DNA from: Centipeda noxia ATCC 43541 | Lineage (GTDB): Bacteria > Bacillota > Negativicutes > Selenomonadales > Selenomonadaceae | Length of the DNA stretch: 64,000 nt | Direction: 5' to 3' | NCBI RefSeq assembly: GCF_000160555.1 | Contig: NZ_GG749283.1 | Span: 1 to 64,000, forward strand | Shown: positions 1,717 to 14,342 of the stretch, in pieces | Layout of the letters: each line of letters starts with the position of its first letter | How positions within the stretch are numbered: the first letter of the stretch is position 1 | Made by a program: the position numbers and the translations under genes | The notes under the pieces: model-generated | What the model was told of the DNA's origin: nothing | Seen by the model: the letters and a program-made list of their open reading frames with translations, nothing else | Databases searched by the model: none

Positions 1717-3222
1717 TTAATCTCGTCCAAGTTTATCACGCAGAATAACATCGTGCGCCCCCCCCTCAACAATGCTGGTCGAGGAGACAAGCGTGAGCTT
1801 CGCCTTATCACGGAACTCGGGGAGTGTGAGCGCACCGCAGTTACACATGGTGGAACGTATCTTGGAGAGTGTCGTCTGAACGTTTTCTTTGAGCGGTCCC
1901 GCATAGGGAACGTAGGAATCTACCCCTTCCTCAAAGGACAGTTTCTTGCTGCCGCCAAGATCGTAACGCTGCCAGTTGCGCGCACGGTTCGAACCCTCGC
2001 CCCAATACTCCTTATAGTACGTTCCGTTCACCATGACGCGATCCGTCGGGCTCTCGTCAAAACGCGAGAAGTAACGTCCGAGCATGAGGAAGTCCGCGCC
2101 CATCGCAAGCGCAAGCGTCATATGGTAGTCATAGACGATGCCGCCGTCCGAGCAGATGGGGATGTAGACGCCAGTTTCCTTAAAATATTTGTCGCGCTCG
2201 GCACACACGTCAATGAGCGCGGTCGCCTGCCCGCGCCCAATTCCTTTAGTCTCACGTGTAATACAGATCGAACCGCCGCCGATGCCGACCTTGATAAAGT
2301 CCGCGCCTGCGTTTGCAAGGAAACGGAATCCCTCGCCATCAACGACGTTGCCCGCACCGACTTTGACCGTATCACCGTACTGCTCGCGGATGTGCTGGAT
2401 GGTCATACGCTGCCACTCGGAGAATCCCTCGGAGGAGTCGATGCAAAGAACATCTACACCCGCGGCAATGAGGGCCGGGACGCGATCCGCATAATCGCGC
2501 GTATTAATGCCGGCGCCGACAATGTAGCTTTTATTATCGTCCGTCAGCTCAAGCTCATTTTCCTTGTTGTCCGTATAGTCCTTGCGAAAGACCATATAGC
2601 GCAGACGTTGATTCTTGTCAATCAGCGGAAGCATATTCAATTTGCGCTCCCAGATGAGATCGTTTGCCTGTGTAAGACTAGTCGAGTCCGCGTCTGCCCA
2701 GATAAGTTTCTCAAAGGGTGTCATGAAGGTGCTGACCTTTGTATCGAGAGACATGCGCGAGACACGGTAGTCACGGCTCGTCACGATGCCGACGAGTTTT
2801 CCGTTCGCTGTTCCATCCTCCGTGACTGCCATCGTGGAGTGCCCGGTCTTTGCGAGGAGATCGAGCACGCCGCCAAGACTTGTTGTGGGACTGATATTGG
2901 AATCGCTGCTGACAAAGCCGGACTTATAGTTTTTCACACGAGAGACCATCGCCGCCTCTGCTTCGATGGACTGGGAACCATAGATGAACGAAATGCCCCC
3001 CTGTTTGGCAAGTGCGATCGCCATCGTATCGTTGGAGACTGCCTGCATGATTGCAGATGTCAGCGGTATATTCATCGTGAGCTCCGGTTCCTCATCGCGA
3101 TGAAACTTGACCAGCGGTGTGCGAAGTGAGACATTCGCGGGGAAACACGCTTCGGAAGAATATCCGGGGATGAGCAGATACTCTCCAAATGTGTGCGATG
3201 GTTCTTTGTAATAATGCGCCAA
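1717..3222 (-). CDS. guaB: IMP dehydrogenase
   Basis: 501 aa. Oxidises IMP to XMP with NAD+, the committed step to GMP. The catalytic loop [10 protein letters not shown] is at about residues 315-324 (Cys about 320). A CBS-domain pair occupies roughly residues 100-215, and the (beta/alpha)8 barrel flanks it. Start choice: a TTG at 3222 sits 5 bases after AGGAAGAGGG, and translation from it begins with the family-like [12 protein letters not shown]. The open frame extends upstream to 3321 but has no ribosome binding site there and would run through the promoter. The gene is monocistronic, with a strong promoter and a convergent terminator. Confidence 0.95.
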
Positions 3223-9254: not shown

Positions 9255-9331
9255 CGGGATGTAGCGCAGTTTGGTAGCGCGCTTGCTTTGGGAGCAAGAT
9301 GTCGCAGGTTCGAATCCTGTCATCCCGACCA
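9255..9331 (+). tRNA. tRNA-Pro (TGG)
   Basis: 77 bases with CCA encoded. Acceptor CGGGATG pairs with CATCCCG; anticodon loop TTTGGGA gives TGG; T-loop GGTTCGAATCC. First gene of a two-tRNA transcript. Confidence 0.97.
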
Positions 9332-12363: not shown

Positions 12364-12570
12364 TTGCAGCACAGAATAGAGGACTATGCCGACATCATTG
12401 ACATGGTGCGCCCGGCTTCGAAGACACATCCGCCGATGTCACTGCGCGACCGTGCGGGACAGTTCGCCCCATTCTCGGCGCTCACAGGCCTCCATGTCGC
12501 TGCAGATCGCACTGAAAAGCACAATAACGCGCAATACGACGGGCATCATTCTCCCCCGCACCGCAGTTGA
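12364..12570 (+). CDS. Short YolD-like protein, partner of the Y-family polymerase
   Basis: 68 aa starting with TTG at 12364 behind AAGGAG. The segment YADIIDMV...MSLRDRAGQFAPFSALTG is the conserved core of the small YolD-like proteins encoded after UmuC-like polymerases in Firmicutes. The usual C-terminal helix after ALTG is replaced by a polar tail (HNNAQYDGHHSPPHRS), so this copy seems truncated or altered. It starts 20 bases after the polymerase stop. Function is not established; a role in damage tolerance is inferred from the pairing. Confidence 0.7.
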   Translation: MQHRIEDYADIIDMVRPASKTHPPMSLRDRAGQFAPFSALTGLHVAADRTEKHNNAQYDGHHSPPHRS

Positions 12571-12595
12571 CAAAGGCACTATAGATCGTTAGAAT
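12567..12595 (+). promoter_or_regulatory. Promoter of the structured RNA / tag-azlCD transcript
   Basis: TTGACA (12567-12572), 17-base spacer, TAGAAT (12590-12595). It overlaps the last codons of the YolD-like gene. Transcription would start near 12602, at the foot of the structured element. Confidence 0.78.
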
Positions 12596-12601
12596 ATTAT
12601 C

Positions 12602-12735
12602 CATATCGGGGTGTGGCTCTGCTGTTGACAAAGCACATCGTCTCCAAATGATGCGTCTTCGAACACGCGCCCAGTGAGCCCGATCATTTATACGTCATAG
12701 GAGCCAGAAACCCTGGGTGGGCTGGCTTTTTCTTA
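12602..12735 (+). ncRNA. Candidate structured leader RNA (tRNA-like arms, then terminator)
   Basis: Between a strong promoter and the tag gene. ATCGGG (12605-12610) can close with CCCGAT (12679-12684). Inside are three arms: TGCT/AGCA (12620-12635, 8-base loop), CATCG/TGATG (12636-12653, loop TCTCCAAA) and GCGT/ACGC (12653-12668, loop CTTCGAAC). The last two resemble a Trp anticodon arm and a T-arm, but the spacing does not make a normal tRNA. A terminator-like hairpin follows at 12702-12731. The architecture fits a riboswitch or attenuator, or a decayed tRNA. The fold was drawn by hand. Confidence 0.45.
12702..12731 (+). terminator. Terminator/attenuator hairpin before tag
   Basis: AGCCAG and CTGGCT pair around a loop containing CCC and GGG, followed by TTTTTC. 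The tag ribosome binding site (GGAGG) comes 9 bases after the T-run, so readthrough would be needed to express tag-azlCD from the upstream promoter. Confidence 0.68.
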
Positions 12736-12748
12736 TTCTGGAGGAACT

Positions 12749-13303
12749 ATGGGAAACGAAAGCAGGCGCTGCAGCTGGGTCAATCCGAATGATCCGATGT
12801 ATGTGAAGTACCATGATGAGGAGTGGAGCAAGCCGCTTCACGACGAGCGAGCACTCTACGAACTATTTATCCTCGAGACGTTTCAGGCGGGGCTGTCGTG
12901 GGCAACCATCCTGCACAAGCGTGAGAACTTTCGGCGCGCATACGAGGGATTCATCCCCGAACGGGTTGCTGCCTTTGATGCAGCAAAAATTGAAGAGTTG
13001 ATGCAGGATGCCGGGATTATCCGCAACCGCCGCAAAATCGAGGCAAGCATTATAAATTCCCGCATATTTCTCGAGATCGCACGCGAGTTCGGCTCATTCG
13101 ACCGCTATATCTGGGGCTTTACGAATGGAAAGTCCGTGCGCGAAAGCTGCGAACTTCGCACAACGTCGCCGCTCTCGGATGAAATCTCAAAGGATCTCAA
13201 ACGACGCGGCATGAAATTCGTTGGTTCAATCTGCGTCTATTCAACCCTGCAGGCAATCGGCGTACTTGCCGCACATACCGACGAGTGTGATTGGAGTAAA
13301 TAA
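12749..13303 (+). CDS. tag: DNA-3-methyladenine glycosylase I
   Basis: 184 aa base excision repair enzyme removing 3-methyladenine. The zinc site of the Tag family is intact: C8, H22 (YHDEEW), and H176-x3-C180 at the C-terminus. The catalytic-region segment ELFILETFQAGLSWATIL (with E43) is conserved. Length matches E. coli Tag (187 aa). GGAGG lies 4 bases before the ATG. Its stop overlaps the azlC start by one base (TAATG), which links a repair enzyme to an amino acid exporter in one transcript. Confidence 0.95.
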   Translation: MGNESRRCSWVNPNDPMYVKYHDEEWSKPLHDERALYELFILETFQAGLSWATILHKRENFRRAYEGFIPERVAAFDAAKIEELMQDAGIIRNRRKIEASIINSRIFLEIAREFGSFDRYIWGFTNGKSVRESCELRTTSPLSDEISKDLKRRGMKFVGSICVYSTLQAIGVLAAHTDECDWSK

Positions 13304-14013
13304 TGACGCGTACAGACAATACTCTGCTCGCGGCACTGCGCGCTGCCTACCCCTATACACTCCCGATCCTCGCCGGCTTCCTGTTTCTCGGACTTGCCTA
13401 CGGGATCTATACCAATGTCTCGGGCTTCTCGTTCTGGTATCCGATGGCGATGAGTACTCTCATTTTCGGCGGATCACTCGAATTCATTGCAACGGCACTC
13501 CTCCTCAGTCCGTTTGCACCGCTCCAAACCTTCCTCCTCGCATTTATGGTTCAGGCACGCCATATCTTCTACGGGATCTCAATGTTTGAAAAGTACCGCG
13601 GCACGGGCTGGAAGAAGCCCTATCTCATCTATGGCATGTGCGATGAGTCCTTCTCGATCAACTATACGGCAAAGATCCCGCAAAACATTGATGCAGGCTG
13701 GTTTATGTTCTTCGTAACCTTGCTGAACCAGATCTATTGGGTTGCAGGCGCGACCATCGGCGGTCTCGTCGGTGCAAACCTCCCCATCAATACGGAGGGC
13801 ATCGAGTTTGCGATGACGGCGCTCTTTGTCGTCATCTTTTTGGAACAGTGGCTGAACGATCCGCAGCACTATACAGGCATCCTCGGACTTGCCGCAACAG
13901 GTGCTTCCCTCATAATCTTCGGCAGAGATGCATTTATGATTCCGTCCATGCTCATCATTCTCACAGGCTGTCTCGCCGCACGCCCGTTCATTGAGGGGAG
14001 GACGACAGCATGA
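13303..14013 (+). CDS. azlC: AzlC-family branched-chain amino acid exporter, large subunit
   Basis: 236 aa integral membrane protein. It has several hydrophobic helices, beginning with YTLPILAGFLFLGLAYGIY (about 17-35), and the family segments MVQARHIFYGISMFEKYR and YGMCDESFSI. AzlC and AzlD form the two-part exporter of branched-chain amino acids or analogues in the inner membrane. The start overlaps the tag stop by one base, and the stop overlaps azlD by 4 bases (ATGA). Confidence 0.93.
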   Translation: MTRTDNTLLAALRAAYPYTLPILAGFLFLGLAYGIYTNVSGFSFWYPMAMSTLIFGGSLEFIATALLLSPFAPLQTFLLAFMVQARHIFYGISMFEKYRGTGWKKPYLIYGMCDESFSINYTAKIPQNIDAGWFMFFVTLLNQIYWVAGATIGGLVGANLPINTEGIEFAMTALFVVIFLEQWLNDPQHYTGILGLAATGASLIIFGRDAFMIPSMLIILTGCLAARPFIEGRTTA

Positions 14014-14342
14014 GTTTCCCAGAGGAATGCATCACCATTGGTCTTTGTGCCCTTGCGAGTATACTCACACGCGCACTTCCCTTTCTTCTCCTCTCAGAGA
14101 AGAAGCCGACACCGCCCATCGTCCGCTACCTCGGCAATGTTCTCCCTGCTGCGGTCTTTGGGATGCTCATCATCTACTGTCTCAAAGACACCTCCTTTCT
14201 GAACGGCAGCCATGGCCTGCCAGAAATTGCCGGCATCATTGCAACGGTCCTGCTGCATCTCAAGTTCCGCCAGATGCTCCTCTCCATTGGGGGCGGCACC
14301 GCAGTCTATATGACTCTGATTCAATTTATATTTATTCCATAG
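14010..14342 (+). CDS. azlD: AzlD-family exporter, small subunit
   Basis: 110 aa with four hydrophobic segments (CITIGLCALASILTRALPFL; YLGNVLPAAVFGMLIIYCL; EIAGIIATVLLHLKF; TAVYMTLIQFIFI). It is the usual partner of AzlC and is translationally coupled to it by an ATGA overlap. Last gene of the tag-azlC-azlD transcript, which ends in a strong terminator shared with the convergent efflux operon. Confidence 0.92.
   Translation: MSFPEECITIGLCALASILTRALPFLLLSEKKPTPPIVRYLGNVLPAAVFGMLIIYCLKDTSFLNGSHGLPEIAGIIATVLLHLKFRQMLLSIGGGTAVYMTLIQFIFIP

Follow-up and report, generated by a model that had tools for sequence, protein, structure and literature searches.

A very probable tRNA-Pro(CGG) pseudogene between an old promoter and terminator upstream of tag-azlCD in Centipeda noxia

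What is the element that stands between a promoter and the tag gene in Centipeda noxia ATCC 43541: a control RNA, or the remains of another gene? In the window, the 64,000-nucleotide stretch of DNA analysed here, the order on the plus strand is a promoter, TTGACA-17-TAGAAT (12567–12595); a segment in which ATCGGG (12605–12610) and CCCGAT (12679–12684) stand around what had been read as three small stem-loops; a predicted terminator of the Rho-independent type, hairpin plus T-run (12701–12731); and the ribosome-binding site of tag, GGAGGA (12740–12745), 3 nt upstream of the ATG. The initial annotation saw in this layout a riboswitch or attenuator of an unfamiliar class and kept a decayed tRNA as its main alternative. 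We believe that the alternative is the right one, and that 12607–12686 is very probably a redundant tRNA-Pro(CGG) gene turned pseudogene, with its old promoter and terminator left in front of tag-azlCD.

The two ends of the unit hold as they were first read: the promoter has 11 of 12 consensus matches, and a terminator hairpin (−13.7 kcal/mol on direct folding) is followed by the tag ribosome-binding site. Neither of two terminator scans lists the hairpin at 12701, probably because its stem is interrupted; a G+C-rich hairpin, a T-run, and retention in relatives are nevertheless all found at 12701–12731, which is what a Rho-independent terminator should look like in sequence. Downstream lie tag, encoding 3-methyladenine-DNA glycosylase I (12749–13303; Pfam PF03352, E 2.2e-68; ATG at 12749), azlC (13303–14013; PF03591), whose ATG shares one base with the tag stop, and azlD (14010–14342; PF05437), all on the plus strand, and since the gene ends overlap the three probably form one operon. 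On the upstream side, a small open reading frame (12364–12570) ends with a TGA (12568–12570) that sits within the TTGACA box; it has no match in Pfam, and tblastn recovers it from 11 of the 13 loci of the congeners.

The same spot was read in relatives. The sample comprises the window's own genome and 13 others of its genus, with a single tag match per genome, and the DNA upstream of tag was read in all 14 (loci L001 and L002, duplicates of other loci, were omitted). A DNA search of the 14 with 12540–12760 matches no genome except the window's own and, with a weak match, G007, so the homology becomes visible only with the tag gene as an anchor. Nine of the 13 other genomes (L004–L012) have, by ARAGORN, an intact tRNA-Pro(CGG) before tag, flanked by promoter and terminator, with position, strand, and the order promoter, tRNA, terminator, tag the same as in the window (e.g., L004, L005, and L012). 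TTGACA is present at the matching place in 13 of 13, followed by TACAAT, TAAAAT, or TAGAAT as the −10 box, and in the nine that bear the tRNA the −10 box is TACAAT or TAAAAT; the window's promoter and hairpin occupy the places of the promoter and terminator of the congeners' tRNA. The remaining four (L013–L016) retain promoter and hairpin and have no tRNA by ARAGORN. A script found and folded a hairpin and T-run resembling those of the window in 14 of 15 loci, the own locus included; it missed L016, where the hairpin was read by eye and the T-run is degenerate. In ten outgroup loci from other genera (L158–L167), ARAGORN finds no tRNA upstream of tag. Two congener loci differ further upstream, in that the polymerase and small-ORF genes were not found ahead of tag in L015 (G003) and L010 (G005), the latter having tRNA-Pro(UGG) and tRNA-Arg(UCU) there instead.

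The homology itself is demonstrable. Aligned end to end with tRNA-Pro(CGG), 12607–12686 scores 23.5, a value reached by none of 2000 dinucleotide shuffles (best 13.5), with identity to the intact tRNA of 76% over 71 positions or 66% over 77, according to the alignment chosen for the T-arm. The score of 23.5 is against the tag-linked variant and drops to 18.0 against the unlinked variant, as expected of a decayed orthologue. When the whole window, both strands, is scanned with the tRNA in stretches of 160 bases, the element ranks third of 1596, behind a pair of overlapping stretches at the genuine tRNA-Pro(UGG) and tRNA-Arg(UCU) (51.0 and 33.0) and just ahead of the genuine tRNA-Ala of the opposite strand (22.5 and 20.0); the next scores are 18.0, one of them remote from any known tRNA. 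A covariance model built from the nine intact, nearly identical tag-linked tRNAs gives the element 13.6 bits (E 0.058) and the intact paralogue 106.5, against a background of 20.2 bits for the opposite strand of the intact tRNA and of 11.0 and 10.2 for two stretches in other loci that have no known tRNA. As these values lie near or above the element's own, the score from the model could not decide the question by itself, and it is the position that carries the case.

Other parents fare worse. Ranked against the tRNAs of its own genome (34 distinct tRNAs, with full sequences from 32 loci, among the best 30 of 54 tRNA matches), the element scores highest with the unlinked tRNA-Pro(CGG), at 18.0, followed by tRNA-Arg(CCU) at 12.5 and a tRNA-Met at 11.0. 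The tRNA-Pro(UGG) located at window position 9255 reaches 10.0, and tRNA-Trp 6.0 over its whole length, against 23.5 for tRNA-Pro(CGG).

The segment is also plainly decayed. It begins with an acceptor strand CGGGGTG, its one-time CCA end reads TCA today, and at 80 nt it is longer than the 77-nt intact copies of the congeners. The pairs kept are 5/7 in the acceptor stem, 3/4 in the D stem, 5/5 in the anticodon stem, and 0/5 or 1/5 in the T stem by alignment; compared with the intact tRNA, the acceptor stem is two pairs short and the D stem one, the T-stem has lost four or all of its five pairs, and the CGG anticodon with its 7-nt loop and the CCA have gone. In what remains of the anticodon arm (12636–12653), one G-C of the 5-bp stem has become G-U, and the loop has grown to the 8 nt of TCTCCAAA (12641–12648), flanked by CATCG and TGATG. 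The arm had originally been likened to that of tRNA-Trp, of which the letters and the 5-bp stem stand and the tryptophan identity does not, given the whole-length scores above. Likewise, the T-arm-like stretch GCGT-CTTCGAAC-ACGC (12653–12668, the loop at 12657–12664) is there to the letter around the one-time T-loop, and the pairs of a tRNA T-stem are not. Also correct is the earlier remark that TTGACAAAG occurs at both 12567 and 12625. The second occurrence coincides with the site where the aligned tRNA reads TTGGTAGAG, so that, judged from the alignment, it would have arisen by change within the former D-arm and not by copying of the promoter, even if a promoter scan scores it as promoter-like together with AATGAT (10 of 12 matches).

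Neither of the tRNA finders used recognises the element: ARAGORN calls no tRNA there, whether given the window or the locus separately, and Rfam 15 at gathering scores yields four tRNA matches in the window and nothing else, none of them at the element. In a survey of bacterial tRNA pseudogenes (PMC9858662), such loci are defined as tRNAscan-SE loci without an assigned anticodon; the element would be of the same kind, a tRNA-derived locus most likely without a functional tRNA product, and differs in that it escapes both ARAGORN and the tRNA model of Rfam and is recognised by synteny. Whole-length homology, an intact orthologue at the same place, and lesions that would remove function, all read from sequence, together make it very probably a tRNA pseudogene.

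Furthermore, a second copy exists. Each of the 14 genomes has a tRNA-Pro(CGG) unlinked to tag, which makes the tag-linked copy redundant; in the window's own genome this intact gene lies at G000:C18:291431-291507 (L026), and the tRNA-Pro(UGG) already mentioned is present in addition. ARAGORN reads the CGG anticodon in all 23 CGG-type loci fetched (L017–L039), 9 linked and 14 unlinked. Losing one of two copies should be tolerable, and we infer that tRNA function at 12607–12686 has been lost, with redundancy as the cause. The nutrient-dependent costs and benefits of tRNA redundancy in E. coli are treated in PMC9981150. One side observation on the two copies concerns G007 (L023, L038), in which the tRNA-Pro(CGG) variants are swapped, the tag-linked copy being of the unlinked type and vice versa, as if the two loci had exchanged sequence.

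The course of events that we propose is gene loss of an ordinary kind. The ancestral unit would have been promoter, tRNA-Pro(CGG), terminator, and tag-azlCD, as in most congeners examined; the tag-linked tRNA would then have decayed in the window's lineage, with the second tRNA-Pro(CGG) elsewhere doing the work, and promoter and terminator would have persisted. Transcripts from this promoter would today mostly end near 12731 as a short useless RNA, and a fraction would presumably read through the old terminator into tag-azlC-azlD.

Why promoter and terminator have persisted can be read in another way, which is compatible with a decayed tRNA and not opposed to it: selection might keep the pair as an attenuating leader of tag-azlCD, with the tRNA remnant as a spacer. 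We regard this as possible, and clearly less likely than not to be true. The four of 13 congeners that keep promoter and hairpin without the tRNA speak for it; the rpoB tree joins them, with support, into the pairs (G001, G009) and (G003, G004), and three of the four have a T-run after the hairpin. Moreover, the hairpin arms vary and yet stay paired, reading GCCGG/CCGGC in L013, GCCAG/CTGGC in the window, and GCCGA/TCGGC in L015, a comparison made by eye and without statistics. However, a retained terminator may be nothing but a relic, or may hold expression at a low and constant level, and the T-run of G004 is degenerate (TCTTCCC). The conserved pair could serve as a simple attenuator of tag-azlCD; the fuller proposition, that the promoter–terminator pair of the tRNA gene was recruited as such and has been under selection in the window's lineage and in two further species pairs without a working tRNA, is a little more doubtful still.

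Two gene trees agree in part. A tree of tag and azlC (with the ten outgroup loci left out, and tag alone for G002 and G031) gives the same two tRNA-less pairs as rpoB, but another placement of the window's genome: beside G001 and G009 (86/95), whereas the rpoB tree has it among the 12 genomes other than these two (85/90, drawn open). Its placement is not firm in either tree, and the absence of the tRNA may have come about by loss or may, in G001 and G009, be the original condition.

A new riboswitch, or another structured regulatory RNA evolved from the tRNA, is in our judgement very improbable. Remnants of the acceptor and anticodon stems are there, a promoter lies upstream and a terminator downstream, and changes lean toward unpaired columns (6/37 paired against 11/34 unpaired, p 0.16, in the first alignment; 10/42 against 16/35, p 0.055, in the alternative one). 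This lean could reflect past or present constraint on the RNA, and may date from when the tRNA still worked. Against random decay, modelled by randomly scattering over the tRNA as many transitions and as many transversions as the element shows, the 13 of 16 or 14 of 21 pairs kept, by alignment, compare with means of 11.3 and 13.3 (P 0.24 and 0.46) and are thus within expectation, so that evidence in the sequence for selection on the stems is weak. The enclosing ATCGGG and CCCGAT are present as letters, but a compact or specially stable structure is not borne out: 12600–12690 (91 nt) folds at −23.6 kcal/mol against a shuffle mean of −22.6 (z −0.32), 71 of 200 shuffles fold at least as stably, and the predicted fold differs from the three small stem-loops. 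Nor does the changed form recur in any of the 13 congeners, nine having the intact tRNA and four none; their upstream regions, proposed earlier as the place to look for compensatory changes, thus offer a plain tRNA or nothing, and no compensatory conservation of the stems.

T-box and other amino-acid leaders can stand upstream of transport genes. The window shares with them a 5' RNA and terminator before an amino-acid transporter operon (azlCD here), and differs in that a covariance search of 12540–12780 against Rfam finds no match even at E up to 10. With neither an Rfam match, nor excess stability, nor pairs kept above random decay, the riboswitch or attenuator of unfamiliar class first proposed finds no support. 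Among the titles listed in literature searches on tRNA pseudogenes and tRNA gene loss, on Selenomonas, and on azlC leaders, none concerns this locus, which may still have been described in print.

That the element is a working but unusual tRNA, with a Trp-like loop CTCCAAA or a frame-shifting loop of 8 nt, has next to no probability: the 5-bp anticodon stem is retained and the 9 nt of GTCTCCAAA (12640–12648) are identical to the genome's own tRNA-Trp around the anticodon, but the T-stem is destroyed, two acceptor pairs are mismatched, CCA is not encoded, the whole-length score favours tRNA-Pro(CGG), a normal tRNA-Trp(CCA) exists in the genome, and neither ARAGORN nor Rfam (E up to 10) recognises it. 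The GTCTCCAAA identity could be a small conversion patch, a notion that is unsupported, or chance; a random 8-mer would equal some 8-mer of the genome's own tRNAs in register with a chance of about 0.003, with several features to choose from.

A pseudogene of tRNA-Pro(CGG) is thus the most likely account of the element, and the locus carries a warning: the combination of promoter, a few stems, and terminator before a gene can be a ruined tRNA gene, one that the tRNA finders used (ARAGORN, Rfam) miss and that synteny reveals. Within one genus, it also adds a small series of intact, decayed, and absent states for a redundant tRNA gene, with promoter and terminator in all three.

Finally, a second decayed tRNA-Pro, with different changes, appears to lie upstream of tag in G031 (L157, about 2118–2184, minus strand), a genome of another genus, whose rpoB has a long branch and does not group with that of the window's genus. 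The candidate scores 11.6 bits, near the chance matches of 11.0 and 10.2, and 4 of 2000 shuffles score as high. The Tag protein of G031 is 87% identical to that of the window, and no umuC, yolD-like, or azlC match adjoins its tag, which suggests that promoter, tRNA, and tag travelled together between genera.
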